DNA of 64,000 nt, taken from NCBI GenBank assembly GCA_026122225.1, contig JANEZZ010002066.1:744001-808000 (forward strand). Reading direction: 5' to 3'. The stretch comes from Heloderma charlesbogerti. Lineage: Eukaryota > Chordata > Lepidosauria > Squamata > Helodermatidae. Positions 1,937 to 63,259 of this stretch are shown piece by piece. Numbering within the stretch: position 1 is the first letter of the stretch; each line of letters starts with the position of its first letter. Position numbers and translations under genes: made by a program. The notes beneath the pieces were generated by a model. It ran no database searches. It worked only from the letters and a program-made list of their open reading frames with translations, and was not told the origin of the DNA.

Positions 1937-3017
1937 TAGGGATGTCAGAGAATTCCGCCATGGATCTCGGTGAGGCCGAATGCCAGTGCATTCGACGCCC
2001 TGAAACCTGTGGCGGAATGGCCTGCCAACCCCCCGCCCCCCTCGCGGATCCCCCCCGGGACAAGACTTACATGGGGTGGATCTTCCGGCTGTCGGCGCCT
2101 CCGGCGGCGGCTCTGGTGTCGGCTTCGGCGGCAGCGGTGGCAGCGGGCAGTCTTCCGACCAGCTGCTGCCGCTACCATTTCCAGGCTTGTGGGGGGGAAA
2201 TAAAAGACGTGATAGGCTACATAAAGATTTACGTAGCCTATCATGGCTAGGTTTTAAAAAAAAAAGGAAAAAAGACGTGATAGGCTACGTAAATCTTTAC
2301 GTAGCCTATCATGGTTGGGGGTGGGTTTAAAAAAAAAACACGTATGCAAATGGCGGTGGCTGCGGCCGCCGCCATTTGCGTTCCTTCTTTTTACCATCTT
2401 AATCTACGTAAATATTTACGTAGACTATGACAGCGAAAATCAAGGGGAATGCAAATAGCATAGCGGGCGCTATTTGCGTCCCCTTTTGATTTGCCGTTTT
2501 AGCCTATGTAAAGATTTACGTAGGCTAAAACAGTGAATGAAAAAGGGACGCAAATAGCGTAGCGGGCACTATTTGCGTTCCCTTTTGATTCGCCGTTTTA
2601 GCCTACGTAAAGATTTACGTAGGCTAAAACAGTGAATGAAAAAGGGACACAAATAGCGCCCGCTATGCTATTTGCATTCCCCTTGATTTACGCCGTCATA
2701 GTCTACGTAAATATTTACGTAGATTAAGACGGCCAAAAAGAAGGAACGCTAATGGTGGCGGCCGTAGCCGCCACCATTTGCGTACGCGGTTGTTGTTTTC
2801 AGTGGGAGGTTTTTGGTTTTTTTACCCAGAGCCCTCCACGGCCGGAAATCCAGCTGCGGATGGCTCTGGCCTGGCCGGGCCAGGCCTGGCTGGCTGCTCC
2901 ACAGAGCTGCCGCAGAGCACAGCTGGCCATTCGAGGATTCCGGGGGGAGGAACAGAACGCCTCCCCCCCCACCATCAACATAATCCGTGAAAGTTAAGTC
3001 ACTTTCGTACATCCCTA
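1937..3017 (+). mobile_element. Palindrome-chain (PC) hAT-like non-autonomous transposon, copy 1
   Basis: The element starts TAGGGATGTCAGAGAATTCC (L end) and ends ACTTTCGTACATCCCTA (R end), with perfect 8-bp TSDs. Subterminal L sequence forms a hairpin around GCCGAATGC/GCATTCG. The middle (2206-2784) is a run of eleven short palindromes. GC-rich sequence resembling the R ends of other copies follows to about 2990. It has no transposase reading frame; the short open frames are by-products of GC richness. TIR sequence and TSD length suggest mobilisation by a hAT transposase, which is inference. It inserted into BovB copy 1 and is therefore younger than it. Confidence 0.9.
2206..2784. repeat. 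Chain of eleven short palindromes, centre of PC copy 1
   Basis: Successive near-perfect palindromes lie at about 2206-2247, 2274-2315, 2338-2384, 2399-2432, 2448-2488, 2500-2533, 2543-2584, 2592-2632, 2642-2684, 2695-2735 and 2742-2784. They alternate between TACGTAAA-type and CGCAAATGGCGG / CGCAAATAGCG-type units. From 2338 to 2784 the series is also an inverted repeat of itself, centred near 2565, spacers included (TTCCTTCTTTTT against AAAAAGAAGGAA). A strand could fold as one long hairpin or as a row of small ones. Confidence 0.92.
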
Positions 3018-3208
3018 CTTTCTTTTCACCACCAGACACACGCACAGCTGAGTGTCCTTTCGGCTTTGGCCCAGCCGCTTCACTCTTTCTGGCGCTACTT
3101 GCAAATTCCCTCTGCTCTTCCCCAATACTATATTGGACACCTTCCGACCTGAGGGGCTCATCTTCCAGCGTCATCCCTTTTAGCCTTGTGATACGTTCCA
3201 TGGGGTTT

Positions 3209-3575
3209 CAAACATATCAAAATATGCTTTTACATGTGTATTTTCAGAGAAAATACATTTAGAAATGTATCTTTTGAGAGAAAATAGATAGCCTCCAGAC
3301 TTAGTCATGCTTACATTAGACCCAATGAAATCATGTTATTCGTGACTAATTTGTCCCACTGATTTCAATGGATCTACTCTAAACATAACTAGGCCAGGAT
3401 CATGCACAGTATGTTTACAATGATGTATTTAATACATATGTATTTAAATGCAAATTATCATGCAGATTTTTTAAATTATTAAATGCAGATTAATGCAGAC
3501 ATGGGAAAGTGAATTTATGAGTGAACACATGAGAAAGTGGCATGGACCAGAAACACTCTGATTCATCCATCCCTA
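3209..3575. mobile_element. Right part of a TAGGG-type hAT-like element (family of 48943-50502)
   Basis: Sequence such as GAAAATACATTTAGAAATG, TATTTAAATGCAAATT and the end CATCCATCCCTA at 3575 match the right half of the element ending at 50502. The left half is missing because BovB copy 1 begins at about 3208. At 3296-3405 lies a short palindromic insert (CCAATGAAATCA ... TGATTTCAATGG), a MITE-like unit. Confidence 0.6.
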
Positions 3576-4045
3576 ACTGATGAGAAATCAGGTGAAAGGG
3601 GGTGATTTTGGATGAGTAGCTGGAAAGATGAGGGTTATGCAGCTGCTAGTAAGCCTGTGGGTAAACCTGCAACTTCCTTAGCTGCTTTGGGTTTCTTAAA
3701 AAAAATTGAAGGGGGGGGGCTACATGAAACTGCATATCACATTTAGTTTGGAGCCTTAGTAATTTTCAGGTTTCTCCAAAATAAAATGTGTTCCCTGACA
3801 ATTTTGTCCAGGACTCTGTACAGGGGTCCACCTGTGGGCTGATGAGGCAGACAAACAAGAGCTTGAGGCCACCACCCCGGCAAAGAAAAGTCACACTTTG
3901 CCAAAGTCATACCAAGGGAAAATCCTGAAGAAACAAAACATAACCAAAAAATCAGAGTAATTCTGGGATTGAGGTGAGTTCTAAGCACCCACTACTTTTT
4001 TTCATCATGGGTCTGTCCTGATATTGTCTACACCCCTTTAATCTC
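3576..4045. other. Unassigned sequence
   Basis: I see no gene, recognisable repeat or structured signal here. The open frame at 3743-3988 on the minus strand has no recognisable motif. Confidence 0.5.
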
Positions 4046-4189
4046 TAGATAGATAGAAAGATAGAAAGATAGAAAGATAGAAAGATAGAAAGATAGATGA
4101 TAGATGATAGATGATAGATGATAGATGATAGATGATAGATGATAGATGATAGATGATAGATGATAGATGATAGATGATAGATGATAGAT

Positions 4190-4248
<59 letters not shown>
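4046..4248. repeat. Compound GATA microsatellite / heptamer array
   Basis: The array begins with GATAGAAA units, passes through about a dozen copies of a GATAGAT heptamer, and ends in pure GATA. The long open frames on the minus strand (Tyr-Leu-Ser-Ile repeats) are simple-repeat artefacts. Confidence 0.97.
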
Positions 4249-4888
4249 TCCAGTACCTCAACCAAAGTGGACTTGGAAATGAGGGGTAAATTAAAATGAT
4301 TTTCACCAGAATTAGCCCAGAGCAAAAATTAGTAAACTTGAAAGAGTACTGATTGTAAGCAATGCAGGAAAACCAAGAAGAAAAGAAAAAGAACAAAATT
4401 TACTACATGTTTCACTGCCCTAATTCTGATCTGAAAATGGAAAGACTACCTGACTAACATTGAAATCTCATACCTACTTAGATGGAAGTAATCCCCATTG
4501 AACTCGATATGACTTACTTCTAAGGAGACATGCACAGGAACGCACAATGTATTCATTGTAGATTCTCAGTTCTAAGGCTACACATCTCCCCAATTTTGAT
4601 AAGACTGGGATTCTCAACAGAACAGCCCTCCAACCACATTGCTTGTGACCCTTGAGGTAACGTGGAGTCTCTCAACATAATGATGGAATTCCATACTGTC
4701 TACATGTTTTAGACAAGAACAGGAACCCTCACTATGGGAAGACCATTTTTGGTGACACCCCCCCCCCTTATGGTGAATGTGATGTGATCTGACCATCAGT
4801 CGATTTGATGGGCAGTAATGGGATGGGGGGGGGAGATATGAATCTCCAAGGTATTTGTGGAGTGAGATTTCCTGATCTTCTGAAATGC
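4249..4888. other. Unassigned sequence with a MITE-like fragment
   Basis: At about 4472-4545 there is a fragment of a short palindromic repeat (CCCCATTGAACTCGATATGA, ACTTACTTCTAAGGAGAC). Related fragments occur at 7469-7560 and 14815-14915. I see nothing else. Confidence 0.5.
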
Positions 4889-4896: not shown

Positions 4897-5214
4897 TAGG
4901 GATGGGAGCACACACAAGGTTCAAGCTCATCAATGTTGTCCATTTTTCACCCGGCTGCTTTTGTTTCACCTCGTTCTCGCTCCTGCATGTGAGCATCTTT
5001 TTTAGGAGAAGAAAAGTGTGCATTTTCGAACACAAAAATATACACTTTTCCAAGATGTACCACAAATGTGCACTTTTCCCCACAGGCTAAAGCATGAAAA
5101 TACTGTGGGGGGGGGTGCTCATTTTCAGAAGTGTATATTTGCATATTTTGAATGAAAGCTTGGGAAATTGCAAAAAATTACACTCCTGAGTACATAAATT
5201 CTCATACATCCCTA
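4897..5214. mobile_element. Small hAT-like element, TGTGCATTTTC family
   Basis: TAGGGATGGGAGCACACAC at the left and CTCATACATCCCTA at the right are flanked by ATTAAAAA / ATTAAGAA (7 of 8 identical). The interior is rich in GTGCATTTTC-like words and their complements. The element at 23354-24375 has the same interior. No coding capacity. Confidence 0.82.
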
Positions 5215-5248: not shown

Positions 5249-6149
5249 TAGGAGTGCACGAAAGCCACTTACCTGGTCTCGCAGCTTGTTCGTGGTGGGG
5301 GGGAGGCGCTTCACTGCTCACCCTCCGAAGTTCAGGCCGGGGGGGAGGCTTCCTGCCTCGCCCAGCCAAAATTCAGGCCGGGGGGGGAGGCTTCCCACCT
5401 CGCCCGGCCGAAATTCAGGCCGGGGAGGAGGCGCCTCGCCTCGCCCGGCCGCGAAATAAAAAGTTAAAAAAAAACACCCCCGTGATAGGCTTTGCGACGA
5501 TTAACGTAGCCTATCACGGCTAGATCTGCAAAGTCAGCTGTGATAGGCTACGTAAATCATCACGTAGCCTATCACGGCTGACTTTAAAAAAAAAAGCGCG
5601 TACGCGAATTACGTAGACTATGGCGAAAATAAGGGCAACGCAAATAGCATTGCCCTTATTTTCGCAGTAGTCTACGTAATCTTTACGTAGACTACAGCGA
5701 CCAAATAAGGAATGTGAACGGCACCTCCCTATGGGGGCTGCCATTAGCCGTACGCACTTGTTTTCTTTTTTTTTAAAGTCACCCGTGATAGGCTACGTGA
5801 CGATTTACATAGCCTATTACGGCTGACTTTGCAAATCTAGCCGTGATAGGCTACGTTAATCATCACGTAGCCTATCACGGGGGCATTTTTTTTTTTAACT
5901 TTTATTGGAATGGCGGCGGCGGCAGCCGGTCAAAAGACCGGCTGCTGCCCCCGCCCCTGACGAAGACCTGCCGAACCGCCGCCAGGACCCGCCACCGGGA
6001 GGGACATTTGGGAAAGGTAAGTCCCGTCCCGGGGGGGGAGCAGGGGGCAGGGGGGTGCGGAGAATTTATCCCCGAAACTTCTTCGGGGGGCCGAACACGT
6101 TGGCGCTTGGCCCCCCGAAGTTTCGGGGAGAAATTCTCCGCCATCCCTA
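5249..6149 (-). mobile_element. PC element, R2-L2 subtype
   Basis: Flanked by a perfect TSD, CCACCTGG (5241-5248 and 6150-6157). The left (R) end begins TAGGAGTGCACGAAAGCC followed by CTTACC, then about three tandem 41-bp GC-rich hairpin units (5325-5450). The middle holds palindromes of the CTACGTGACGATT type and a GGCAACGCAAATAGCATTGCC palindrome in simplified form. The right (L2) end is a long hairpin built on GAGAAATTCTCC and CCCCGAAACTTC. About 900 bp is the usual full length of this subtype here. Confidence 0.92.
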
Positions 6150-11083: not shown

Positions 11084-11586
11084 TAGGGATGCTGGAAATA
11101 CCCTCTGCAGACTCAAATGAGGCCAAATTCCAAAAAAACAATCCCTGGAGCAGACAGTGGTTGAGCTACACTCACCTCGAATCAACAAGAGTTCCTGTGG
11201 GTTGGCTCTCCAGCTTTCTAAAAAAATGTGATATCGTAATGGCAACTGCCATTAGCTTACTGCAGGAAAGTTACAGCCATAAATTGCATATTTATTCCAT
11301 TTGTGGCTGTAAAGTACTTACTTTTACATAACTTCAGCTGTAAACAGCTGCAATTTATGTAAAAGTAAGTGCTTTATGGCCTCAAATGGTGTGAAAGATG
11401 CCATTTACATCAGTAATTTCCCATGATAGGCTAATGGCATCTTTTAAAAAAACTGGAGAGCCACTCCGCCAACTCCAGCAGATGTGGAGGGCTCCAGAGA
11501 AATCTGTGGGGCCCCAAGCAGCCTGAATTGCCCCGCAGTGAACACACACACCTCAGACCAGACTTTGGGGAATTTACCCATCCCTT
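11084..11586. mobile_element. hAT-like element with its own internal palindromes
   Basis: Perfect TSD GTTAGGAG (11076-11083, 11587-11594). Ends are TAGGGATGCTGG and TTTACCCATCCCTT (last base T instead of A). The interior holds imperfect palindromes around GGCAACTGCCATTAG, TACAGCCATAAATTGC and ACTTACTTTTACATAA / TTATGTAAAAGTAAGT. It also carries GATAGGCTAATGGCATC, a word close to PC palindromes, so the two families may be related. Confidence 0.88.
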
Positions 11587-11808: not shown

Positions 11809-12729
11809 TAGGGATGTCAGAGAATTTTGCCACGAATCTCGGGGAGGCCAAATGCCAGGGCCCTGAAATTGGAAATTGAAATGCCCCTAAAATTGGTGGC
11901 GAAATGGTCTGCCACTCCCCGCCCCGCCCCCAGGACGGGACTTACCTTGGGCTAATCCTTCTGGAGGCGGCGGCTCCGGCAGCGGTGCAGCGGTGGTGCG
12001 GCGGCAGCCAGTCTTCCGACCGGCTGCCACCTCCGCCATTTCCAGTAAAAAAACAAACAAAACAAAAAACATGATAGGCTGCGTAAAGATTTACGTAGCC
12101 TATCACAGCTAGATTTTTAAAAAATACAGTGATAGGTTACGTAAATGTTTACGTAGCCTATCATGGCTGAGTAAAAAAAACAAAAACGCACGTACGCAAA
12201 TGGCGGTGCCCATGGGCACCACCATTTGCGTTCCTTATTTTGGCATGTCTAGTCTACGTAAACATTTACGTAGACTACGGCAAAAATAAGGGGAACGCAA
12301 ATAGCATAGCGTCTACGCTATTTGTATTCCCCTTATTTTCGCTATAGTCTACGTAAATGTTTACATAGACTAGATGTGCCAAAATAAGGAATGCAAATGG
12401 CGGCGCCCATGAGCGCCACCATTTGTGTATACGCGGTTCTGTTTTTTGTTTTTTTTTACTCAGCCGTGATAGGCTACGTAAACATTTACGTAGCCTATCA
12501 TGGCTGACTGCAGGGACACAAACGGCGGCGGCTATGGCCGCCGCCATCTGTGGCCCGGCCAGCCAGGATTCGGGGGTGGAGGGACGGAGCACCTCCCCCC
12601 AGCCAGAATTTGGGGGGGAGGGATGGAGCGCCTCCCCCCCAGCCAGAATTTTGGGGAGGAGGGACAGAGCGCCTCCCCCCCACCGCGAATCAAATTTCGT
12701 TCAAGGTAAGTGACTTTCGTACATCCCTA
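11809..12729 (+). mobile_element. PC element, L1-R1 subtype
   Basis: Flanks TACCTAGA / GACCTAGA (7 of 8). The L end is TAGGGATGTCAGAGAATTTT. Palindromes follow at 12071-12111, 12130-12170, 12190-12232, 12250-12282, 12295-12335, 12345-12375, 12385-12428 and 12460-12505, with a nested-inverted centre near 12313. The right part has three GC-rich units of about 45 bp (12565-12690, GGAGCGCCTCCCCCC), then CAAGGTAAGTGACTTTCG and CATCCCTA. Confidence 0.92.
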
Positions 12730-13055: not shown

Positions 13056-13467
13056 TAGGGATGTACGAATCCCTTACCTGGTTCTGGTAAGGGCATCCGC
13101 TGGTGGGGGGAGGCGATCCATTCCTTCCCCTGGAATCCTTGATGGGAGGAAAGGCAATCCAGTCCTCCCCCCCAGAATCCTGCTTGGCCAGCTCCGCTCC
13201 AAGGCCATGCCTCTGGCCACTGCCGGGCTGGTGTGGACACAAATGGCGTCCTGCATAGGGGATGCCATTTGCATCCCTACAGTAGCCTATCATGGCTAAA
13301 GCAGGGATGCAAATGGCAGCTGCTACGCCATTTGCGCCCCTGCTCTTTGCCGTGATAGGCTACGTAAGTATTTACATAGCCTATCACAGTAAAGGCAGCC
13401 ATGTAGCCTTTACCCACGGTAAAGGCACCCACATATCCTTTACCCATGTAGCCTTTACCCCTGCTTA
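13056..13467 (-). mobile_element. PC element fragment (R1 end and palindromes)
   Basis: Begins TAGGGATGTACGAATCCC, then GC-rich hairpin units and two palindromes (13235-13275; 13350-13390). The L end is missing. It stops in an unusual run of GTAAAGG / CCTTTAC inverted words (13390-13460). It starts exactly where copy 1 of the 318-bp segment stops, so it probably inserted there and later lost its far end. Confidence 0.75.
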
Positions 13468-13672
13468 GGAGTGCACAAAAGCCACTTACCTGGTCTCGCA
13501 GCTTTTCGCGGTGGGGGAGGTGCTTCGCTGCTCTCCCCCCGAAGTTCAGGCCGGGGGGGGAGGCTTCCCGCCTCGCCCACCCGAAATTCAGGCCAGGCGG
13601 GAGGCTTCCCGCCTCGCCCGGCCGAAATTCAGGCCGGGGAGGAGGCGCCTCGCCTCGCCCGGCCACAAAATA
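13468..13672 (-). mobile_element. PC element fragment (R2 end only)
   Basis: TAGGAGTGCACAAAAGCC with CTTACC, then three 41-bp GC-rich units (13545-13665). It breaks off at GGCCACAAAATAATATT. No right end or TSD can be found. Confidence 0.75.
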
Positions 13673-13689
13673 ATATTTTTGCCACAATA

Positions 13690-17450: not shown

Positions 17451-18362
17451 TAGGACTGTACGAAAGTCACTTACCGTTTTGGGGATCTGCTTCGCAGTGG
17501 GAGGAGGTGCACCTCCCTCCCCCCAGAATCCTCGATGGCGGGGAGGTGCTCCGTCCCTCCCCCCAGAGTCCTGCCCAGCTGGCTCCGCTCTGTGGGGATT
17601 CTGCGGAGCCACCGGCTGGCTCCGCCGGCAGCTGGACATCTGGCCGCTGGGCAGCAGGGACGCAAATGGCGGTGGCTGTAGCCGCCGCCATTTGCGTCCC
17701 TGTACTTAACCGTGATAGGCTACGTAAATATTTAAATAGCCTATCATGACAAAGTAAAAAAAATGTGTACGCAAATGGCGGCGGCTACGGCGGCCTCCAT
17801 TTGTGTTCGCTATTTTTCGCCGTTCTAGCCTACGTAAATATTTTTAAGTAAGCTAAATATTTACGTAGGCTAGAACGGCGAAAAATAGCAAATGCAAATG
17901 GCAGCCGCCGTAGCGGCCGCCATTTGCGTATGCTGTGCCTAGCCGCGGCCAGCCAGGAGACCAGCCGCCCCCGCCACCGCCACACCTTCCTCCGCCCCCG
18001 CCGCTGCTGCACCTTGCACCGCACTTTCCGCCGCACCTTCCGCCGCCGCAGCCCCCACCGCCGCCCCCGCCACCGCCGCACCTGCCACCCCCGCCACTGC
18101 CGCACCTGCTGCCCCCGCTGCCACACCCGCTGCCACCGCACCTGCCACCGCCACCGCTGCCGCACCCTTCGCCGCCGTACCTTCCGCCGCTGCTGCCGCA
18201 CCGCCGCCGCATCCACCAATGCATCTGCCCCAGGTGAGTGCCGTCCCGGGGGGTTCCGCAGGGCGGGGGGGCAGGAGGCCATTCCGCCACAGATTCCAGG
18301 GGGCCGAATGCCAATGCATTCGGCCTCACTGGAATCCATGGCAGAATTCTCTGCCATCCCTA
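17451..18362 (-). mobile_element. PC element, R1-L1 subtype, with expanded GC tract
   Basis: Perfect TSD TGAAAGGC (17443-17450, 18363-18370). R end TAGGACTGTACGAAAGTCAC with CTTACC. Palindromes at 17655-17700, 17710-17750, 17762-17810 and a long one at 17818-17932, whose centre includes TATTTTTAAGTAAGCTAAAT. L end GAATTCTCTGCCATCCCTA. Between 17955 and 18225 the usual short GCC-rich spacer is expanded into about 270 bp of CCGCC/CACCTGCC units. Confidence 0.92.
17955..18225. repeat. CCGCC-rich trinucleotide/minisatellite expansion
   Basis: Irregular tandem units of CCGCCGCAC, CTGCCACCG and CCTTCCGCC with 3-bp periodicity. This produces long open frames on both strands (Pro-rich, or Ala/Gly-rich), which I regard as non-coding. 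Confidence 0.85.
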
Positions 18363-19915: not shown

Positions 19916-20563
19916 TAGGGGTGTCAGAGAATTTCTCGCCGAAACTTCAGGGGGCCGAGTGCCAACATATTTGGCCCCCCAAAGTAGTTTCGGGGAGAAA
20001 TTCTCCCCACCCCCCCGCCCCCCACCCCCCCCGGGATGGGACTTACCTTTCCCGAATGTCGCTCCCGGTGGCGGGTCGCAGCGGCGGTTCGGCAGGGCTT
20101 CGACAGGGGCGGGGGCAGCAGCCGGTCTTTCGACCGGCTGTCGCCACCGCCATTCCAAGAAAAGTAAAAAAAAAACAAACGCCCCCGTGATAGGCTACGT
20201 GACAATTAACGTAGCCTATCATGGCTAGTTTTGCAAAGTCAGCCATGATAGTCTACGTAAATCGTCACATAGCCTATCACGGGTGACTTTAAAAAAAAAA
20301 AGCTCGTACGGCTAATGGCGGCCCCCATAGGGAGCCGCCATTCGTGTTCCTTATTTGGTCGCTGTAGTCTACGTAAAGATTACGTAGACTACAGCGAAAA
20401 GAAGGGCAACGCTATTTGCACTTCTCCCCGGCCTGAATTTCAGCCGGGCGAGGCGGGAAGACATCCCCCGCTCGCATGAACTTCGGGGGGGAGAAGTGAA
20501 GCGCCTCCCCCCCATCGCGAAAAAAGCTGCGGGACAAGGTAAGTCCCTTTCGTACATCCCTAA
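19916..20563 (+). mobile_element. PC element, internally deleted L2-R type
   Basis: Perfect TSD AAAAACAA (19908-19915, 20564-20571). The L2 hairpin end contains GAATTTCTCGCCGAAACTTC and its inverse GTTTCGGGGAGAAATTC. Palindromes lie at 20188-20225, 20243-20283, 20303-20345 and 20365-20395. The array then stops at GGCAACGCTATTTGC, skips the second half, and resumes in the R-type GC-rich end with ACAAGGTAAGTCCCTTTCG. It is a deletion derivative that lost one arm of the large inverted repeat. Confidence 0.9.
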
Positions 20564-22160: not shown

Positions 22161-23090
22161 TAGGGGTGGACAAAAGTCGCTTACCTGTCGTCGAAGGCCG
22201 TTCGCGGTGGGGGGGAGCGCTTCGCTGGTCCCCCCGCGAAGTTCAGGCCGGGGGGGGAGGCTTCCTGCCTCGCCCGGCCGAAATTCAGGCCGGGGGGGAG
22301 GCTTCCCGCCTCACCCGGCCGAAATTCAGGCCGGGGAGGAGGCTTCCCGCCTCGCCCGGCCGTGAACGCGGAAGTAAAAAAAAAAAAAAAAAAGCCCCCT
22401 GATAGGCTACGTGACGATTCACGTAGCCTATCACGGCTAGATCTGCAAAGTCAGCCGTGATAGGCTACATGAATCGTCACGTAGCCTATCACGGGTGACT
22501 TTAAAAAAAAAAAAAAAAGCGCGTACGCGAATGGCGGCCCCCATAGGGAGCCGCCATTCGCGTTCCTTATTTAGTGGCTGTCGTCTACGTAAATGTTTAC
22601 GTACACTACGGCGAAAATAAGGGCAACACAAATAGCGTTGCCCTTATTTTCGCCGTAGTCTACGTAAACATTTACGTACACTACAGCCACCAAATAAGGA
22701 ACGGGAATGGCGGCTCCCTATGGGGGCCGCCATTATCCGTACACACTTTTTTTTTTTTAAGTCACCCGGGATAGGCTACGTGACGATTCACGTAGCCTAT
22801 CACAGCTGACTTGGCAAATCTAGCCGTGATAGGCTACGTGAATCGTCACGTAGCCTATCAGGGGACGTGTTGTTGTTTTTTCTTTGATTGCAATGGCGGG
22901 GGCGGCAGCCGGTCGAAAGACCGGCTGCCGCTCCCGCCCCGCTCGAACACCGGACGAACCGCCAGCCGGACCCGCCGCCGGGAGGGACATTCAGGGAAGG
23001 TAAGTCCCGTCCCGGGGGGGGGCGGGGGGCGGGGGGTGCGGAGGATTTCTCCCCGAAACTTGTTCGGGGAGAAATTCTCCGCCATCCCTA
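22161..23090 (-). mobile_element. PC element, R2-L2 subtype, well-preserved reference copy
   Basis: Perfect TSD GCTCACAC (22153-22160, 23091-23098). R2 end TAGGGGTGGACAAAAGTCGC, then three 41-bp units (22238-22363). Palindromes at about 22397-22433, 22456-22494, 22522-22563, 22580-22615, 22618-22648, 22655-22690, 22700-22745, 22768-22805 and 22824-22861. The whole array is a nested inverted repeat with its centre near 22633. The L2 hairpin end is shortened (CCCCGAAACTTGTTCGGGG). Confidence 0.94.
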
Positions 23091-27879: not shown

Positions 27880-28760
27880 TAGAGATGTATGAAAGTGCCC
27901 TTACCTGACTCCGCCGGGTTCCACTGGGGAGGGAGGCGCTCCGTCCCTCCCCCCGGAATCCTCACCGGCTGGCTCCGCTCTGCAGGGATTCCGCAGAGCC
28001 ACCGGCCGGCTCCGCCAGCAGACAGACATTCGGCCGCTGGCTAGCAGGGACGCAAATGGCGGCGGCCGTAGCTGCTGCCATTTGCGTCCCTGTAGTCAGC
28101 CGTGATAGGCTACGTAAATCTTTACGTAGCCTATCACGTCTGACTTTAAAAAAAAAAATGCACGTACGCAAATGGCGGTGGCTACGGCCGCTGCCATTTG
28201 CGTTCCTTATTTTTTGGCCGTCTTAGTCTACGTAAATATTTACGTAGACTAAGACGGTGTAAATAAGGGGAACGCAAATAGCGTAGTGGACGCTATTTGC
28301 ATTCCCCCTTATTTTCGCCATCTTAGTCTACATAAATATTTACGTAGACTAAGACGGCCAAAAATAAGGAATGCAAATGGCAGTGGCTGTAGTCACCGCC
28401 ATTTGCGTTTATGCATTGTTGTTTTTTAAAGTCAGCCGTGATAGGCTACGTAAAGATTTACATAGCCTATCACGTCATTAAAAAAAAAAAACCTAGCCAT
28501 GATAGGCTACGCAAATCTTTTCGTAGCCTATCACGTCTTTTTTTTTTTTTTTTTACAACACTGGAAATGGTGGCGGCAGCAGCCAGTCGGAAGACCAGCC
28601 GCCGCAGCCGTCCAGAAGATCCGCCCCAGGTAAGTCTCGTCCCATGGGGGGATTGGCGTGGGGGCGTGGGGGCAGGCCGTTCTGCCACGGAGTTTGGGGG
28701 GCCAAATGCACTGGCATTTGGCCTCACCGAGATCCGTGGCGGAATTCTCTGCCATCCCTA
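27880..28760 (-). mobile_element. PC element, R1-L1 subtype
   Basis: Perfect TSD CCCTGTTA (27872-27879, 28761-28768). R end TAGAGATGTATGAAAGTGCC. Palindromes at 28050-28090, 28100-28140, 28160-28205, 28215-28255, 28268-28308, 28318-28358, 28370-28412, 28432-28472 and 28495-28535. CAGGTAAGTCTCG at 28627 marks the L-side donor-like site. The L1 hairpin contains GCCAAATGCACTGGCATTTGGC. Confidence 0.93.
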
Positions 28761-39857: not shown

Positions 39858-41796
39858 TAGGGATGGACAAAAGTCCCTTACCTGTTCTCGAAGCTTGCTT
39901 CGCGGTGGGAGGGAGGTGCTTCGGTTCTCCCCCCGAAGTTCAGGTGAGGGGGGGAGGTGCCTCGCCTCGCCCGGCCAAAATTCAGGCCAGGGGGGAGGCG
40001 CCCCATCCCTCGCTGGCGAAATTCAGGCAGGGTAGAAGCGCCCCGTCTACCTGGCCACGAAAAAAAAAGTAAACAAAAACAAAAAACACACACACCCATG
40101 ATAGGCTACGTAACGATTTACGTAGCCTATCAGGGCTAGATTTCCAAAGTCAGCCGTGATAGGCTATGTAAATCGTCACGTAGCCTATCACGGGTGACTT
40201 TGGAAAAAAAAAAAAAAGCACATACGCAAATGGCGGCTCCCATGGGGAACGCCATTTGCGTTCCTTATTTTGACATGTCTAGTCTACGTAAAGATTTACG
40301 TAGACTACGGCGAAAATAAGGGCAACGCAAATAGCGTTCCCATATTTTCGCCGTAGTCTACGTAAATCTTTACGTAGACTAGATGTGCCAAACTAAGGAA
40401 CGCAAATGGTGGCGCCCATGGGCCGCCGCCATTTGCGTACGCGCTTTTTTTTTTTCAAAGTCACCCGTGATAGGCTACTAGGGGTGGACGAAAGTCACTT
40501 ACCTGTCCTCGAAGGCCGTTCGCGGTGTGGGGGAGCGCTTCGCTGCTCCCCCCGCGAAGTTCAGGCCGGGGGGGGAGGCTTCCTGCCTCGCCCGGCCGAA
40601 ATTCAGGCCGGGGGGGAGGCTTCCCGCCTCGCCCGGCCGAAATTCAGGCCGGGGAGGCGGCGCCTCGCCTCGCCCGGCCGCGAATGCGGAAGTTAAAAAA
40701 AAAAAAACGCCCCCTGATAGGCTACGTGACGATTCACGTAGCCTATCATGGCTAGATCTGCAAAGTCAGCCATGATAGGCTACGTGAATCGTCACGTAGC
40801 CTATCACGGGTGACTTTAAAAAAAAAAAAAAAGCGCGTACGCGAATGGTGGACCCCATAGGGAGCCGCCATTCGCGTTCCTTATTTAGTGGCTGTAGTCT
40901 ACGTAAATGTTTACGTAGACTACGGCGAAAATAAGGGCAACGCAAATAGCGTTGCCCTTATTTTCCCCGTAGTCTACGTAAACATTTACGTAGACTACAG
41001 CCACCAAATAAGGAACGGGAATAGCGGATCCCTATGGGGGCCGCCATTATCCGTACACTCTTTTTTTTTTTTTTTAAAGTCACCCGTGATAGGCTACGTG
41101 ACGATTCATGTGGCCTATCACGGCTGACTTTGCAGATCTAGCCGTGATAGGCTACGTGAATCGTCACGTAGCCTATCAGGGGGCGTTTTTTTTTTTTCTT
41201 TCATTACAATGGCGGCGGCGGCAGCCGGTCGAAAGACCGGCTGCCACTCCCGCCTCGCTTGAACAACCGCCGAACCGCCGGCTGGACCAGCCACCGGAAG
41301 GGACATTCGCAAAAGGTAAGTCCCGTCCCGTGGGGTGCAGGGGGCGGGGGGGTGCGGAGGATTTCTCTCCGAAACTTGTTCGGGGGGCCGAACGCGTTGG
41401 CGCTCGGCCCCCCGAAGTTTCGGGGAGAAATTCTCCGCCATCCCTATAGGCTACTTGACGATTTACGTAGCCTATCACGGCTGACTTTGGAAATCTAGCC
41501 GTGATAGGCTACGTAAATCATTACGTAGCCTAACACGGGTGTGTGGTGTTTTTTTTTTTACTTTACTTTTTTTTTTTCAATGGCGGCGGTGGCAGCCGGT
41601 CGGGAAACTGGCCGCCGCCCCCGCCCCCGCCGAACCGCTGCCGGGACCCGCCACCGAGAGGGACATTCGGCCATGGTAAGTCCCATCCCGGGGGGGGTGG
41701 GGGGCCAGCGGAGAATTTCCCCACCAATTTCGGGGGGTCGAATGCGTTGGCATTCAGCCTCCCGAAGATTCGAGGAGAACTTCTCCGCCATCCCTA
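39858..41796 (-). mobile_element. PC element, split by another PC element
   Basis: Flanks AGTGCGAA (39850-39857) and AGTGCAAA (41797-41804), 7 of 8. R end TAGGGATGGACAAAAGTCCC, three 41-bp-like units, palindromes 40098-40135, 40155-40195, 40218-40262, 40280-40312, 40322-40345, 40352-40385 and 40398-40440. The next palindrome is cut at 40478 by the nested element and resumes at 41447. It continues to the L2 hairpin end CTTCTCCGCCATCCCTA. Without the insert and one TSD copy it would be about 960 bp, the family norm. Confidence 0.92.
40479..41446 (-). mobile_element. PC element nested inside a PC palindrome
   Basis: Perfect TSD TAGGCTAC (40471-40478, 41447-41454), which is half of the host GATAGGCTAC palindrome. 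R2 end TAGGGGTGGACGAAAGTCAC, three 41-bp units (40558-40680), the nested palindrome array (40715-41180, centre near 40950), the L2 end with CCGAACGCGTTGGCGCTCGG. Very similar to 22161-23090 and 43611-44574. Confidence 0.94.
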
Positions 41797-42045: not shown

Positions 42046-42996
42046 TAGGGATGTACAAAAGTCACTTACCGTTTCGCGGATGCATTTGCGACGGGGGGGG
42101 AGGCACTTCGTCCCTCCCCCCGGAATCCTCAATGGGGGGGAGGTGCTCCAGTCACCCCCCTGGAATCCTGCCCAGCCAGCTCCACTCCACGGCGATTCCG
42201 CAGAGCCGCCAGCTGGCTCTGCCCGCAACCGGACATCCGGCTTCTGGGCAGAAGGGATGCAAATGGCAGCGGCCATAGCCACCACCACTTGCATCCCTGT
42301 AGTGAGCCGTGATAGGCTACATAAGTATTTATGTAGCCTATCATGGCAGGCTTTAAAAAAAAAAAACACGTACGCAAATGGCGGTGGCTACGGCGGCCGC
42401 CATTTGCGTTCTGTATTTTTCGCCGTTTTAGCCTACGTAAATATTTACGTAGGCTATTATGGCGAAATAAAGGGGAACGCAAATGACGTAGTGAGCGCCA
42501 TTTGTATTACCCTTTTTTTGGCCATAATAGCCTACATAAATAATTACGTAGGCTAAAACGGCGAAAAATACAGACCGCAAATGGCAGCCGCCGTAGCCAC
42601 CGCCATTTGTGTACACGTTGTTTTTTTTTTTTTAAGCCTGCTGTGATAGGCTACATAAATACTTATGTAGCCTATCACGGCCTCCGCAGGGATGCAAAAG
42701 GCGTCCCTGCATTAGCCGTGATAGGCTACATAGGTATTTACGTAGCCTATCACAGCCGTGAAGAAAAAGCGAATGGCGGCTGCAGGGCAGCCGCTATTCA
42801 CAAGTCGGCGCAGACGGGAGCAGGTAAGTGCTCTGTTTCATGTGACTTTCATGGGTTGGGGGGCAGGGGCTTCGTCCCGCCTGACTTTTGTGGGTTGGGG
42901 GAGGCGGGGGCTTCGTTCTGCGATGGATTTCGGGTGGCTGAATGCACTTGCATTCGGCCTCAGTGAGATCCGTTGCGGAATTCTCTGACATCCCTA
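42046..42996 (-). mobile_element. PC element, R1-L1 subtype
   Basis: Perfect TSD GTCCCAGA (42038-42045, 42997-43004). R end TAGGGATGTACAAAAGTCAC. Palindromes at 42255-42298, 42308-42345, 42370-42410, 42422-42460, 42472-42512, 42522-42560, 42575-42615, 42640-42680 and 42718-42755. The L side carries GCAGGTAAGTGCTC and an L1 hairpin with GAATGCACTTGCATTCGG. It has a duplicated TTTTGTGGGTTGGGG motif (42850-42900) not seen in other copies. Confidence 0.92.
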
Positions 42997-43610: not shown

Positions 43611-44574
43611 TAGGGGTGGATGAAAGTCACTTACCTTTTCTCGCAGCTTGTTCGCGGTGGGGGGGAGCGCTTCGCTGCTCCCCCCGTGAAGTTCAGGCTG
43701 GGGGGGAGGCTTCCCGCCTCGCCCGGCCGAAATTCAGGCCGGGGGAGGAGGCTTCCCACCTCGCCCGGCCGAAATTCAGGCCGGGGAGGAGGCTTCCCGC
43801 CTCGCCTGGCCGCGAATACGAAAGTAAAAAAAAAAAAGTCCCCTGATAGGCTACGTGATGATTCACGTAGCCTATCATGGCTAGATCTGCAAAGTCAGCC
43901 GTGATAGGCTACGTGAATCGTCACGTAGCCTATCACGGGTGACTTTAAAAAAAAAAAAAAAGCACGTACGCGAATGGCGGCCCCCATAGGGAGCCGCCAT
44001 TTGCGTTCCTTATTTAGTTGCTGTAGTCTATGTAAATGTTTACGTAGACTACGGCAAAAATAAGGGCAACGCAAATAGCGTTGCCCTTATTTTCCCCGTA
44101 GTCTACGTAAACATTTACGTAGACTACAGCCACCAAATAAGGAACGGGAATGGCGGCTCCCTATGGGGGCTGCCATTATCCGTACACACTTTTTTTTTTT
44201 TTTTAAAGTCACCCGTGATAGGCTACGTGACGATTCACGTAGCCTATCACGGCTGACTTTGCAAATCTAGCCGTGATAGGCTACGTGAATCGTCACGTAG
44301 CCTATCAGGGGACTTTTTTTTTTCTTCTTTGATTGCAATGGCGGCGGCGGCAGCCGGTCAAAAGACCGGCTGCCGCTCCCGCCCCGCTCGAACACCCGAC
44401 GAACCGCCAGCTGGACCCACCGCCGGGAGGGACATTCAGGGAAGGTAAGTCCCGTCCCGGGGGGGGGCGGGGGGTGGGGGGGTGGAGGATTTCTCCCCAA
44501 AACTTGTTCGGGGGGCCGAACACGTTGGCGCTCGGCCCCCCGAAGTTTCGGGGAGAAATTCTCCGCCATCCCTA
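43611..44574 (-). mobile_element. PC element, R2-L2 subtype, without matching TSD
   Basis: R2 end TAGGGGTGGATGAAAGTCAC and L2 end AATTCTCCGCCATCCCTA are both complete, with the palindrome array at 43840-44310. The flanking octamers (GTGCCAGC, ACTGAAGT) differ. The right flank does not continue the inverted repeat found on the left, so one side may have been rearranged after insertion. Confidence 0.9.
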
Positions 44575-45720: not shown

Positions 45721-45726
45721 CTTAAA

Positions 45727-47090: not shown

Positions 47091-47108
47091 GATCTAAAGA
47101 GCCTCTCG

Positions 47109-48531: not shown

Positions 48532-48797
48532 TAGGGATAGGGGAAAATTCCGCCATGGACTCCAGTGAGTCCATGGACTCCCCCGGAGTCCATGGCGGAA
48601 TGGAGCAATCCCCTTGCCACCCCGCGGAACCCCCCCGGGACGGAGCCTACCTGGTGGCAGCTCCGGCAGTGACAGCGGCAGCGGCTCCAGCTCATCTTCT
48701 GGCCACTGCCGGGCTGATGGAGCCGCAAATGGCGGCCGTTGTAGCGGCCACCATTTGCGTGGCTGCCTTTGCCATGATAGGCTATGTAAATACATAC
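48532..48797 (+). mobile_element. PC element fragment (L1 end plus first palindrome)
   Basis: TAGGGATAGGGGAAAATTCC with the GGACTCCAGTGAGTCCATGG hairpin, ACCTGGTGGCAGC, the palindrome CGCAAATGGCGGCC ... GGCCACCATTTGCG, and half of a GATAGGCTATGTAAATAC palindrome. It stops there, inside the palindrome. Confidence 0.75.
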
Positions 48798-48942: not shown

Positions 48943-50502
48943 TAGGGATGCTCAAAGATTTTGTTTGGTCTACATTTTAAAGCAAACTGACCTGATCTGG
49001 AGCTCCCGTACTAGCGTACAGGCCAGAATGCATTAATCCTTCAGGTTTCACACTTCTTTGAATTTTGTGATGCAGCTGTCAGCTCAAAAAGCAACCAAAA
49101 TGCATTGTAAAATTTATCTTTTAGGATCCATACTAGGGATGTCAGAGAATTCTGCCATGGATCTCGGTGAGGACGAATGCCAGTGCATTCGACCCCCCGA
49201 AATCTGTGGCAGAATGAAGCCCCCCCCCACGAAAGGCACGTGAAACGGAGCACTTACCTGCTGCTGTTCACACTGACTTGCGAATGGTGGCCACGACTGC
49301 GGCTGCCATTCGCTTCCTCATCATAGCCGTGATAGGCTACATAAATAATTACGTAACCTATCACGACTAATGCAGGGATGCCATTTGTGTCCCTGTGGAG
49401 GCCATGATAGCCTACATAATATTTACGTAGCCTATCACGGCAAGCAAAAAAAAAAGCGTACGCAAATGGCGGCGGCTATGGCGGCCACCATTTGTGTTCC
49501 CTTTTTTTCGCCGTTTTAGCCTACATAAATATTTACGTAGGCTATTACAGTGAAAAAAAAAGGGGAATGCAAATGGTGTCGTGGGTGCTATTTGCGTTCC
49601 TTTTTTTCCCACTGTAATAGCCTATGTAAATACAGCTGGTTTTATGATAGTTTTCTGGTTTCTCACAACGTATGCCTTTCTAAATGTATGGATTAGGGAT
49701 GTACGAAAGTCACTTACCTTTTCTAAGAGTGACATTCGCGGTGGAGGAGAAGGCGTTCCATCCCTCCCCCCGAAATTCTGTCCGGCTGGCTCTGCTCCAC
49801 AGACATTCCACGGAGCCGCCAGCCGGGGCCGCCCGCAGCCAGACATCAGGTCACTGGGCAGCCTGCAGGGACACAAATGGCAGCTGCCATAGCCACCATT
49901 TGCATCCCTGTATTTTGCCATGATAGGCGTCGTAAATATTTACATAGCCTATCATGGCAAGCAAAACAACAACAATAGCAGACGCAAATGGCAGCTATGG
50001 TGGCCGCCATTTGCATTCCCTTTTTTTCGCCGTAATAGCTTATGTAAATATTTATGTAGGCTAAAACAGCATAAAAAGGGAACACAAATGGCGGTGGCTG
50101 TAGCCGCCGCCATTTGCGTCCGCTGTTTGTTTGTTTTTTGTCCAGCTGCAGGCGGCCCTGGCCAGCAGCTCCACGGAATCTCTGCGGAGTGGAGCCAGCC
50201 GGACAGAATTTTGGGGGGAGGGACGTAGCGCCTCCCCCCCACCGTGAATGTCACCCTTCGAAAAGGTAAGTGACTTTCGTACATCCCTAATCCATACATT
50301 TAGAAAGGCATACGTTGTGAGAAAACACATTAAGAAGCATGCATTTTGTGAGAAAAGATGTTCAAAAATATGTATTTAAATATGAATTTTCATGCAGATT
50401 TCTTAAAACATCAGATGGATGCAGGAATGGTCCAAACCAGGTTTATAATGAACACATGTGAAACTGACACAGATGAGAAATAGCATGGTGTATCCATCCC
50501 TA
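48943..50502. mobile_element. TAGGG-type hAT-like element hosting a PC element
   Basis: Left TAGGGATGCTCAAAGATTTTG; right GTGTATCCATCCCTA. Flanks TTCCCAAC / CTTCCAAT are only partly alike. The sequence is continuous across the nested insertion: GATCCATAC at 49125-49133 joins ATCCATACATTTAGAAAGGC at 50290. Its right half matches 3209-3575. Confidence 0.65.
49134..50289 (+). mobile_element. PC element with internal inverted duplication
   Basis: Perfect TSD ATCCATAC (49126-49133, 50290-50297). L1 end TAGGGATGTCAGAGAATTCT. The palindrome array runs to about 49630. Foreign sequence then appears (49631-49693), which is an inverted copy of DNA found to the right of the element. This is followed by an inverted R end (TAGGGATGTACGAAAGTCAC at 49694), palindromes, and the true R end at 50289. 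At 1156 bp it is the longest copy. Confidence 0.88.
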
Positions 50503-52350: not shown

Positions 52351-52928
52351 TAGGGATGGCAGAGAATTGCACCATCGACTCCAAAGTATCCAGCCCCCCA
52401 GAGTCCATGGTGGAAAGGAGCACTCCCCTCCACCACCCCACGAAATTCTCCCTGGATGGACCCTACCTGCCACTGGCCAGTCCAGTCTGTCCACTGCACT
52501 GCTATCCACTGCCCTGGTCTATGGCCACAAATGGTGTCTGGCGTAGCGGATGCCATTTGTGTCCCTGCTTTAGCCGTGATAGGCTACATAAATCTTTATG
52601 TAGCCTATCACGGCAAACAGCAGGGACACAAATGGCATCCGCTACACCATTTGCATCACTACTCTTTTCGTGATAGGCTCCGTAAATATTTACATAGACT
52701 ATCACAGCTAAAGCAGGGACGCAAATGGTGTCCGCTATGCTGGATGCCATTTGTAGCCGCAGACCAGCAGCGGATGGAAGTCTGGCTGCAGACGGGCCTG
52801 GCCGGCACTCCGCGGACTCGCCGTGGAGCAGAGCCAGCCAGGGAGGATTCCGGGGGGAGGGACAGATCACCTCCCCCCCACCATGGACACCCCGGACCGG
52901 AACGGTAAGTGGATTTCGTACACCCCTA
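52351..52928 (+). mobile_element. PC element, short L1-R1 subtype
   Basis: L end TAGGGATGGCAGAGAATTGC with the GGACTCTG/CAGAGTCC-type hairpin. Palindromes at 52518-52565, 52575-52612, 52620-52655, 52668-52708 and 52715-52757; then GAACGGTAAGTGGATTTCG and CACCCCTA. Flanking octamers CCCAGAAC / CCCACATG are not a clear TSD. Confidence 0.85.
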
Positions 52929-55293: not shown

Positions 55294-56050
55294 TAGGGAT
55301 GTACGAAAGTCCCTTACCTGAACCGAAACTTGCTTCGCGGTGGGGGGGAGGCGCCCCATCCCTCCTGCTGCGAATCCTGGCCAGCTGGGACGCAAATGGC
55401 GGCGGCCATAGCCACCGCCGTTTGCGCCCCTGCAGTCAGCCGTGATAGGCTATGTAAATGTTTACATAAAAAAACGTGCTTACGCAAATGGCAGTGCCCA
55501 TAGGTGCTGCCATTTGTGTTCCTTATTTTGGCACGTGTAGTCTACGTAAACATTTACGTAGACTACGGCGAAAATAATGGGAACGCAAATACTGTAGCGT
55601 CTACGCTATTTGCGTTCCCCTTATTTTCGCCGTAGTCTACGTAAATGTTTACGTAGACTAGACATGCCAAAATAAGGAACGCAGATGGCGGCGGCGCCAT
55701 TTGTGTACGTGCATTTTTTTTGCTTGATATTTACTCAGCCGTGATAGGCTACGTAAACATTTATGTAGCCTATCATGGTATTTTTTAAAAATCTAGCCGT
55801 GAAAGGCTAGGTAAACATTTACGTAGCCTATCACGTTTTTTTGTTTTTGTTTTTTTTTTACTGGAAATGGCGGCAGCGCCGAACCGCCGCCGAACCACCG
55901 CCAGAGCCACCGCCACCAGGAGGATTCGCCCAAGGTAAGCCCCATCCGGGGGGGCGGGGGGGCAGACCGTTTTGCCACCGATTTCGGGGGGCCAAATGCA
56001 CTGGCATTCAGCCTCCCTGAGATTCGTGGTGAAATTCTCTGACATCCCTG
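55294..56050 (-). mobile_element. PC element, R1-L1 subtype, inserted at a CR1 fragment
   Basis: R end TAGGGATGTACGAAAGTCCC, L end AATTCTCTGACATCCCTG. Palindromes at 55390-55430, 55440-55470 (half deleted), 55480-55525, 55538-55570, 55580-55620, 55630-55662, 55675-55705, 55738-55778 and 55795-55835. CAAGGTAAGCCCC at 55932 is the L-side donor-like site. Flanks TCTACAAC / GGAATGCG differ, so no TSD. Confidence 0.88.
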
Positions 56051-57994: not shown

Positions 57995-58795
57995 TAGGGA
58001 TGAACGAAAGTCTCTTACCTTTCTGTGGATTATGTTTATGGGGGGGAGGTGTTCTGTCCCTCCCCCCAGAATCCTCGACAGGGGGGGAGGCGATCCATTT
58101 CTCCCCCCCGGAATCCTCAAACGGCCGGCTGTGCTCTGCAGCGGCTCCACGGAGCAGCTGGCCAGTCCCAGGCCAGAGCCGTCCGCAGCTGGATTTCCGG
58201 CCGCGGAGGGGTCTGGGTAAAAAAAAAAATGCATACACAAATGGCGGTGGCTACAGCTGCCACCATTTGCGTTCCTTATTTTTGGCTGTCTTAGTCTACG
58301 TAAATATTTACGTAGACTATTATGGTGAAAATAAAGGGGAACGCAAATAGCACCCGCTATGCTATTTGCGTTCCCCTTTATTTTCGCCGTAATAGTCTAC
58401 GTAAATATTTACTTTGACTAAGAAGGCCAAAAATAAGGAATGCAAATGGCAGCGGCCATAGCCGCCGCCATTTGCGTACGTGTTTTTTTTTTTTAACCCA
58501 GCCGTGAGAGGCTACGCAAATCTTTACGTAGCCTATCACGTCTCTGTTAAAACAAAAACAAAAAAAACCCTCCAGACTGCAAGTGGCAATGGCGGCAGCC
58601 AGTCGGAAGACCAGCTGCCACAGCCGCCGCCGCCGCAGCCACCGCCACCCGGAACATCCGCCCCAGGTAAGTCACGTCCCGGGGGGATCCGCGGGGGGGC
58701 AGGGGGGCAGGCCGTTCCGCCACAGATTTCGGGGGGCCGAATGCACTAGCATTCGGCCTCACCGAGATCCATGGCGGAATTCTCTGACATCCCTA
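57995..58795 (-). mobile_element. PC element, R1-L1 subtype
   Basis: Flanks CTGTGAGT / CTATGAGT (7 of 8). R end TAGGGATGAACGAAAGTCTC. Palindromes at 58228-58270, 58290-58325, 58335-58375, 58390-58425, 58440-58485 and 58503-58540. CAGGTAAGTCACG at 58665. L1 hairpin GCCGAATGCACTAGCATTCGGC near the right end. Confidence 0.92.
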
Positions 58796-61170: not shown

Positions 61171-61178
61171 GACAGAAC

Positions 61179-62105
61179 TAGGGATGGCGGAGAATTTCTC
61201 CCCGAAACTTCGGGGGGCCGAGCGCCAACGCGTTCGGCCCCCCGAACAAGTTTCGGTGAGAAATCCTCTGCACCCCCCCGCACCCCGCACCCCCCCCGGG
61301 ACGGGACTTACCTTCCCTGAATGTCCCTCCCGGCGGCGGGTCCGGCTGGCGGTTCATCCGGTGTTCGAGCGGGGCGGGAGCGGCAGCCGGTCTTTCGACC
61401 GGCTGCCGCCCCCGCCATTGCAATGAAAGAAAAAAAAAAAAACACGTCCCCTGATAGGCTACGTGACAATTCACGTAGCCTATCACGGCTAGATTTGCCA
61501 AGTCAGCCGTGATAGGCTACGTCAATCGTCACGTAGCCTATCCCGGGTGACTTAAAAAAAAAAAAAGTGTGTACGGATAATGGCGGCCCCCATAGGGAGC
61601 CGCCATTCCCGTTCCTTATTTGGTGGCTGTAGTCTACGTAAATGTTTATGTAGACTACGGTGAAAATAAGGGCAACGCTATTTGCATTGCCCTTATTTTC
61701 GCCGTAGTCTACGTAAACATTTACGTAGACGACAGCCACTAAATAAGGAACGCGAATGGCGGCTCCCTATGGGGGCCGCCATTCGCGTACGCGCTTTTTT
61801 TTTTTAAAGTCACCCGTGATAGGCTACGTGACGATTCATGTAGCCTATCATGGCTGACTTTGCAGATCTAGCCGTGATAGGCTACGTGAATCGTCACGTA
61901 GCCTATCAGGGGGCGTGTTTTGTTTTTTTTTTACTTCCGCGTTCGCGGCCGGGCGAGGCGGGAAGCCTCCTCCCCGGCCTGAATTTCGGCCGGGCGAGGC
62001 GGGAAGCCTCCCCCCCGGCCTGAACTTCGCGGGGGGACCAGCGAAGCGCTCCCCCCCACCGCAAACGGCCTTCGACGACAGGTAAGCGACTTTCGTCCAC
62101 CCCTA
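61179..62105 (+). mobile_element. PC element, L2-R2 subtype, opposite orientation
   Basis: Perfect TSD GACAGAAC (61171-61178, 62106-62113). L2 hairpin with GAATTTCTCCCCGAAACTTC and CCGAGCGCCAACGCGTTCGG; palindromes at 61450-61487, 61507-61545, 61575-61615, 61630-61662, 61668-61698, 61705-61737, 61752-61795, 61818-61855 and 61873-61910. Three 41-bp units follow (61940-62065), then AGGTAAGCGACTTTCGTCC and CACCCCTA. A mirror image of 22161-23090. Confidence 0.94.
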
Positions 62106-62142
62106 GACAGAACAAACTTAGCAGGGAAAAGTGAAAACCTAA

Positions 62143-62640
62143 GTGAAATCGAGCTTGATAGGTTCAGTCATTGTTAGGGTGGACACTGAGCCCATAGAAT
62201 CTCAGAGTAGTTCTGATTCTGAGGAAGAGCAGTCGTTCCTGGGAGAGGAGCGCGCTCCTCTTTCCCAGGACCAACAGCTGATGGAGATTCCTCCCACCAG
62301 CATTCCTAGTTTAGTTAGCAGTCCAGGGAGTGACCGAGCACAGATAGCAGACTTGGTGGATGTGCGACGCAGACGCAGAGAGCGGCGCCAGATGGAGGGC
62401 GCGGAAAGGAGGCGTAGTGCCCAGTTGGCGCACAAACAACGGCTGCACCCAGAGGATCCAAGGGAAGAGGGGACGGACTCTCCCTAGTCCTTACGTTCAG
62501 GGGTCTGCCAGTAATTCCCTTTCAAACGGGGACCAACTGTTCCAACTTAGGACATAGGTACTGTGCTGCTCAGATCTAGTTGCAAACAGTATAGTTGTTA
62601 AGTTGTAAAATAAGAATAAAGCTTTGAAAGGAATCCCTTT
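62143..62640 (+). repeat. Repeat with conserved acidic/Arg-rich reading frame, copy C (most intact)
   Basis: A single frame of 114 codons (62143-62487) contains ESQSSSDSEEEQSFLGEERA, a Ser/Pro-rich middle, then DVRRRRRERRQMEGAERRRS and AQLAHKQRLHPEDP before its stop. AATAAAG follows at 62613, then CTTTGTCTGTGTCTGGACTT. A basic tract after an acidic serine block could bind nucleic acid; this is inference. The ATG is not supported by homology, and the frame may be the 3' end of a longer retroelement gene. Confidence 0.55.
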
Positions 62641-62916
62641 GTCTGTGTCTGGACTTGGCTACTGGATTAGACTGAGAGAGCCCTCCAAGGAGCCCTTGAC
62701 AGTCATCCCTACTGTGGCAAGCAATGCTACTACTGTGGGACAACCAGGGAAGGAAGCAAGGCAACTTTTCAGGGCTTAGGGGGGCAATATATTTCTGGGT
62801 GCACCACAAAGAGTGACTGTCTCCACCATCACCACCACTTCTAGTGTATGTGTGACTTTTAGAGGACAAGAAGGAATGTCTCAATAGCATCCAAAGGTAA
62901 CCATGGGATAGAATTC

Positions 62917-63259
62917 TAGGGATGTACGAAATGACTCACCTGTTTCGTGACATCCGCAGTGGGGGGGAGGCACTCCGTCCCTCCACCCGAAATCCTTGCC
63001 AGCCAGCTAGGGCTGCCCGCAGCGACATCTGGCTGCTGTTGGGCTGCTCAGGGATGCAAATGAGCATCCTGCATTAGCCGTGATAGGCTACGTAAGTATT
63101 TACATAGCCTATCACGGCAAAAATCGTGAAGCGAATGGCGGCCGCAGACATTTGCAGGGTGGGGGGGTGGGGGGGCTTCGATCTGCCATGGATTTCAGGG
63201 GGCATGCACTGGCATTCAGCCTCACTGAGATCCATGGTGGAATTCTCCACCATCCTTAT
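62917..63259 (-). mobile_element. PC element, strongly shortened R1-L1 copy
   Basis: R end TAGGGATGTACGAAATGACTC, one palindrome (63075-63118), L end GGAATTCTCCACCATCCTTA. Only 343 bp: most of the array has been deleted. TAGAATTC before and AAGAATTC two bases after the end may be the TSD. Confidence 0.8.

Follow-up and report, generated by a model that had tools for sequence, protein, structure and literature searches.

A likely nonautonomous hAT transposon family of Heloderma charlesbogerti with a large palindromic core whose arms evolve in concert

The maize Ac/Ds transposons (PMC3260210) have the ends C/TAGGGATGAAA and TTTCATCCCTA, generate 8-bp target site duplications (TSDs), and include nonautonomous classes that share little except their ends; most Ds1 elements also lack subterminal AAACGG repeats. 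Among the features listed for Ds-based traps (PMC2647555) are putative splice donors located 5′ subterminally. We analyzed a family of transposons that recurs throughout a 64-kb stretch of Heloderma charlesbogerti DNA (contig JANEZZ010002066.1, positions 744,001 to 808,000), referred to below as the window. The copies probably constitute a nonautonomous hAT family with Ac-type ends and a palindromic core of ∼450 to 490 bp, in which palindromes of two types, A and B, alternate and the two arms have evolved in concert, likely through template switching or gene conversion. Concerted arm evolution is the strongest of the new results and, together with outward-facing splice donor boxes and a YY1-like motif, goes beyond what had been noted for this DNA in an earlier reading of its sequence (the original prediction).

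Each copy was oriented with the D-end (TAGGGATGTACGAAAGTCACTTACC) on the left and the N-end (TAGGGATGTCAGAGAATTC) on the right. The 17 analyzed copies are 342 to 1156 bp in size (Table 1), and ∼19 copies and partial copies are present in the 64-kb window. BLAST searches with eleven TSD-defined stretches as queries, one of which contains another, assigned 14,943 bp (23.3%) of the window to the family, and the interval list used for later counts holds 15,567 bp (24.3%). All end pairs composed of TAGGGATG and CATCCCTA, with at most one mismatch in each and 100 to 2500 bp between them, were collected, and their 8-bp flanks were compared. Flanks matching with at most one mismatch were present in 17 of the 166 candidate pairs and in none of the pairs in each of four shifted-flank controls. 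Eleven of these scan-positive pairs are copies of the family, and the remaining six belong to other TAGGGATG-ended elements; pairing of three more copies, outside the systematic scan, relied on inspection by eye or on a search for TSDs. Among the 17 analyzed copies, the TSD is perfect in 10, agrees at 7 of 8 bases in 4 (in e62917 only if two extra right-end bases are allowed), and is missing from 3.

The tips fit 5′-YARNG, a mark of hAT terminal inverted repeats, at 15/17 D-ends and 16/17 N-ends. The two ends of one copy share 5 to 12 of their first 16 bases, where the value of 5 comes from e55294, a copy with an imprecise end. The eight outermost tip bases are those of the maize Ac/Ds ends (PMC3260210); 8 of 11 terminal bases match, and the next three differ. 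The terminal 200 bp of the 17 copies contain a raw total of seven AAACGG hexamers on both strands. With agreement limited to the outer eight bases and few AAACGG hexamers, the elements are best described as hAT-like with Ac-type tips and not as Ac/Ds proper. Weighing against a hAT assignment is the outcome of a domain scan of ten chosen open reading frames (ORFs) of the 175 listed, in which no transposase domain was found (only RVT_1, in two ORFs) and no autonomous copy or partner within the window was detected. Since the ten scanned ORFs contain no transposase, the family likely lacks autonomy, and its members are likely nonautonomous hAT transposons that would be moved by cut and paste in trans by a hAT enzyme from outside the window.

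These results agree with most of what the original prediction had proposed. Its estimate that the family fills about a quarter of the window holds for both measurements of coverage, and the 17 analyzed copies plus the two partial ones in Table 1 come close to the predicted total of about 20. The 8-bp TSDs that it reported are borne out and its four example TSDs are all correct, with the tally changing from nine perfect and three 7-of-8 duplications to ten and four. Its assignment to hAT transposons is supported by the 8-bp TSDs, the YARNG tips, and the outer eight bases shared with Ac/Ds.

A full copy proceeds from the D-end through the palindromic core and an N-side stretch, which carries the ATGGCGGC motif and a splice-donor-like box, to a hairpin-forming N-end. 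The youngest subfamily, which has TAGGGGTG at one end, possesses an extra GC-rich tandem repeat of ∼49 bp between the D-end and the core. In the core, A palindromes (TAGnCTACGTnA...TnACGTAGnCTA; n = 76) alternate with B palindromes (ACGCAAATGGCGG...CCGCCATTTGCGT and relatives), and the entire chain is mirror symmetric about one center, forming a single large palindrome of ∼450 to 490 bp. Local palindrome scores, with arm length capped at 230 bp, range from 18 to 194 in the 17 copies and are at least 103 in 11 of them, while plain shuffles (twelve shuffles of three copies, with fewer centers scanned) reach 9 to 14. Folded as single-stranded DNA, positions 40700 to 41200 form one long stem (z score, −46.5), as do positions 28090 to 28490 in e27880 (z score, −33.0), and in neither case was any of 100 shuffles as stable. 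The variable base of TAGnCTA, which occurs in three states, matches across the small arms of 73 of the 76 A palindromes, compared with 34.9 expected. Copy e01937 contains one additional unit and retains its mirror symmetry, as expected if a palindromic unit was duplicated in tandem; a chain growing in this manner would keep every mirror center. The nested palindromes of the original prediction were therefore correctly recognized, with the addition that the chain is also one large palindrome, and the large internal palindrome with concerted arms supports its remark that the body is unlike a usual miniature inverted-repeat transposable element (MITE), a class of short, noncoding elements with terminal inverted repeats and high copy numbers. 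The long inverted repeats of foldback elements reach the tips, but the large inverted repeat of this family is internal, and the tips differ after ∼8 bases.

To compare the arms of the large palindrome, they were excised from twelve copies and analyzed in eight lineages; the four copies left out of the tree test are three other young copies, whose group is represented by e43611, and e05249. The left and right arms of a single copy differ by a mean distance of 0.118 (range, 0.070 to 0.210), whereas the means across different copies are 0.207 when same-side arms are compared and 0.204 when opposite arms are. Two-against-two site patterns, summed over 28 pairs, comprised 343 copy-specific, 35 arm-specific, and 54 crossed patterns. 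A tree separating all left arms from all right arms was rejected (difference in log likelihood, 185.6; approximately unbiased [AU] test, P = 1.2e-8), and a tree pairing the left and right arms of every copy was as good as the best one (AU test, P = 0.36). Several points weigh against concerted evolution or temper its strength. In 3/8 lineages (e11809, e57995, and e55294), the nearest arm belongs to a different copy and is not the partner arm. Arms of the four youngest copies cluster with their counterparts on the same side, and each of the six pairs shows 0 copy-specific and 5 to 12 arm-specific patterns. The arms were cut by their own mutual alignment, a procedure with a slight bias toward within-copy similarity, and the pair sums of site patterns are not independent. 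Because the youngest copies have no copy-specific patterns, homogenization is not continuous: arm similarity was restored from one subfamily to the next but not after the most recent burst. We infer that the likely cause lies in gene conversion or in template switching from arm to arm, in which one arm would be recopied from the other while the DNA is single stranded.

The main rival to this interpretation is that each subfamily started from a new inverted duplication, which would make the arms alike without ongoing correction. This is possible but somewhat doubtful. The number of units does vary among copies, and the four youngest copies show no homogenization since their split, both of which favor fresh duplication, but the order of A and B units is common to all lineages, and the same center and the same dissimilar tips would have to be rebuilt each time. 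It is unlikely that arm complementarity was kept, with no copying, by selection on a folded hairpin, whether a DNA cruciform or double-stranded RNA. Long stretches carry copy-specific changes that are exactly common to both arms, and the large and small arms change together, which copying would account for in one step, although the very strong fold and the paired changes in the A palindromes speak for such selection. An assembly artifact is extremely improbable: long palindromes are difficult to sequence and assemble, but the TSDs differ by site, subfamily divergence is graded, and the copy nested in mid-palindrome within another copy has its own TSD. If the arms do copy each other, as we favor, a small and abundant transposon would offer many natural replicates for measuring arm-to-arm homogenization, a process for which isolated large palindromes, for example, those on sex chromosomes, are so far the best-known cases.

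The ratio of observed to expected CpG is 0.53 to 1.19 in the copies, compared with 0.23 in the remaining window. Between the four young copies, CpG transitions amount to 0.113 per CpG site, compared with 0.013 elsewhere (∼nine times), and between older copy pairs, they amount to 0.233, compared with 0.072 for other sites (∼three times). The raised rate between young copies rules out protected CpG islands; rather, the excess indicates that insertion is followed by CpG loss of the kind seen in methylated DNA and that CpG richness reflects recent arrival. Same-arm distances among the eight lineages are 13 to 28%, and TSDs mismatch at 3/104 positions (13 pairs, found by similarity). With so few TSD mismatches at such lineage distances, many diverged lineages, and not one master copy, seem to have been recently mobile; counting against this, the search for most pairs relied on similarity, which biases the mismatch frequency downward.

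Splice donor sites were scored with a weight table (maximum, 12.6 bits), and matches of at least 10 bits were retained. Outward-facing matches were present at the D-end of 16/17 copies, 24 to 25 bp from the end (23 bp in e62917), and at the N-end of 14/17 copies, 91 to 173 bp from the end, with only two sites elsewhere in the copies. The corresponding values in dinucleotide shuffles were 0.02 (D-end), 0.17 (N-end), and 2.58 (elsewhere). The sequence AGGTAAGT occurs 19 times in the family and twice in the other 48.4 kb of the window. The base preceding AG is A or C in all 33 sites (17 D and 16 N), as splice donors prefer, and departures at +3 go to G in two sites. In e42046 (positions 42046 to 42996) and e49134 (49134 to 50289), the N-side box lies in a different context (AGCAGGTAAGTGCTC), and the usual place is occupied by ATGTGACT or ACGTGCCT; a shift of the box may explain this, as may an origin of the stretch from the D-end. 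The motif AATGGC[GA]GC, which resembles the YY1 consensus, was found 49 times in the copies, compared with 0.6 in shuffles; 51 occurrences lie in the family and 4 outside it.

On the basis of these motifs, the YY1-like sites and outward donor boxes are predicted to let a copy serve flanking DNA as a bidirectional promoter with a first exon. The boldest proposal, which we consider rather doubtful, is that of a mobile mirror-image promoter, in which the palindromic, CpG-rich core with its YY1 sites would fire both ways, short first exons and near-perfect 5′ splice sites at the ends would join neighboring genes in either orientation, and copying between the arms would keep both directions functional. 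It is quite possible, if short of probable, that the AGGTAAGT boxes and repeated palindromes are instead transposase binding sites, unrelated to splicing or promoters. Galileo is reported to have tandem repeats within its inverted repeats that supply additional transposase sites (PMC4079207), and Ac transposase binds subterminal hexamers (PMC3260210). Furthermore, the mutual orientation of the boxes, each facing the other, is that expected of binding sites, and the D-side box runs on into the conserved terminal 18 bases, a contiguity that makes a role in transposase binding possible. Conversely, the conserved 8-mer of the boxes is the best complement of U1, the base preceding AG and the departures at +3 follow the pattern given above, the distance of the N-side box from the end is not fixed, and the palindromes are central, away from the ends. 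Should the outward donor boxes work as splice sites, first exons ready for use on either side would come with the family, and every insertion would test the origin of new promoters and chimeric transcripts.

Three further ideas about these regions were rejected. Donor boxes are not a trait of all TAGGGATG families, since 4/7 other TAGGGATG-ended stretches are without a site of at least 9 bits; those with some such sites are at 8916 to 9480, 11084 to 11586, and 24576 to 24976. An asymmetry of poly(A) signals was also discarded, as AATAAA/ATTAAA occurs 2 times outward and 5 times inward, compared with 11.9 outward in shuffles, a depletion that is real but hardly directional. Finally, by hand reading, the ORF after the N-side ATGGCGGC is open to the donor box in e43611 and e19916 and stopped in e40479 and e05249, which gives no sign of an encoded protein.

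Several other elements were observed in the window. Six of them combine TAGGGATG-like tips with 8-bp TSDs that mismatch at no more than one base but have different bodies (positions 4897 to 5214, 8916 to 9480, 11084 to 11586, 28837 to 29402, 34330 to 34713, and 38506 to 39039); judged from their sequence, these are further hAT-type families with the same tips. The stretches at 12739 to 13055 and 18982 to 19300 are 89% alike and start with 24 to 28 bp of the family's N-end, followed by a clearly different body. Neither showed a second end or a TSD, and they could be the remains of a longer relative. Within the copy at 17451 to 18362, positions ∼17950 to 18240 are a CCGCCG/CCACCG-rich expansion that yields long open reading frames encoding Pro, His, Arg, or Ala. 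Two BovB-like reverse-transcriptase copies of long interspersed elements (LINEs) are located at 244 to 1935 (minus strand) and 45265 to 47807 (plus strand); for one of them, the named best matches are cattle reverse transcriptase proteins at ∼75% identity. Long GATA-type microsatellite arrays are located at 4022 to 4272, 25697 to 25883, and 37101 to 37217.

Table 1. Coordinates of family copies and of selected features within them (positions in the window)
Feature	Position	Strand	Remarks
Copy e01937, expanded chain (extra palindromic unit)	1937..3017	-	Perfect TSD CTTTCTTT
Copy e05249	5249..6149	+	Perfect TSD CCACCTGG
Copy e11809	11809..12729	-	7/8 TSD TACCTAGA/GACCTAGA
Partial copy, starts with D-end	13056..13673	+	BLAST
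Copy e17451	17451..18362	+	Perfect TSD TGAAAGGC
Copy e19916, core partly missing	19916..20562	-	Perfect TSD AAAAACAA
Copy e22161, young subfamily	22161..23090	+	Perfect TSD GCTCACAC
Copy e27880	27880..28760	+	Perfect TSD CCCTGTTA; core 28090-28490 is one hairpin
Copy e39858, interrupted by nested copy 40479-41446	39858..41796	+	7/8 TSD AGTGCGAA/AGTGCAAA
Copy e40479, young subfamily, inside A palindrome of e39858	40479..41446	+	Perfect TSD TAGGCTAC
e40479 D-end outward splice donor match CAGGTAAGT	40497..40505	-	
e40479 large palindrome including poly-A/poly-T flanks	40700..41193		DNA fold z score, −46.5
e40479 first A palindrome of six	40715..40748		Others near 40762-40817, 40894-40923, 40969-40998, 41076-41131, 41145-41178
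e40479 N-side YY1-like AATGGCGGC	41208..41216	+	
e40479 N-side outward splice donor match AAGGTAAGT	41313..41321	+	
Copy e42046	42046..42996	+	Perfect TSD GTCCCAGA
Copy e43611, young subfamily	43611..44574	+	No TSD seen
Partial copy, N-end side	~48536..48791	-	BLAST
Copy e49134	49134..50289	-	Perfect TSD ATCCATAC
Copy e52351, CpG-poor	52351..52928	-	No TSD seen
Copy e55294, right end imprecise by 1-2 bases	55294..56049	+	No TSD seen
Copy e57995	57995..58795	+	7/8 TSD CTGTGAGT/CTATGAGT
Copy e61179, young subfamily	61179..62105	-	Perfect TSD GACAGAAC
Short copy e62917	62917..63260	+	7/8 TSD TAGAATTC/AAGAATTC, two-base offset

A literature search, with most subscription papers outside its reach, turned up no transposon family of such build. 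One pattern scan each found no relatives in viral contigs or in prokaryotic contigs, a result of little weight for a vertebrate repeat, and a scan for known RNA families gave no matches. The family can be set beside four described systems. Like the Stowaway MITEs (PMC1925063), it is a palindromic element with strong predicted structure, but Stowaway elements have a TA target and are short, with a single simple palindrome. It shares with the Drosophila foldback elements Tetris and DAIBAM (PMC4079207) a nonautonomous nature, tandem repeats in inverted arms, and some grouping of repeats within copies; the long inverted repeats of Tetris, however, are terminal, whereas those described here are internal, the tips differ, and the units are themselves palindromes. 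In turtles, fishes, and a frog, hAT-6_XT and its derivatives (PMC11008031) likewise form a vertebrate hAT group with nonautonomous derivatives; compared here by description, they differ in that no palindromic body was encountered in their account, whose main text lacks the word "palindrom." The family differs from Ac/Ds in its palindromic core, its few AAACGG hexamers, the match of 8/11 terminal bases, and its host in a different kingdom, yet, like Ac/Ds, it combines an 8-bp TSD and the tips TAGGGATG...CATCCCTA with nonautonomous copies of varied size.

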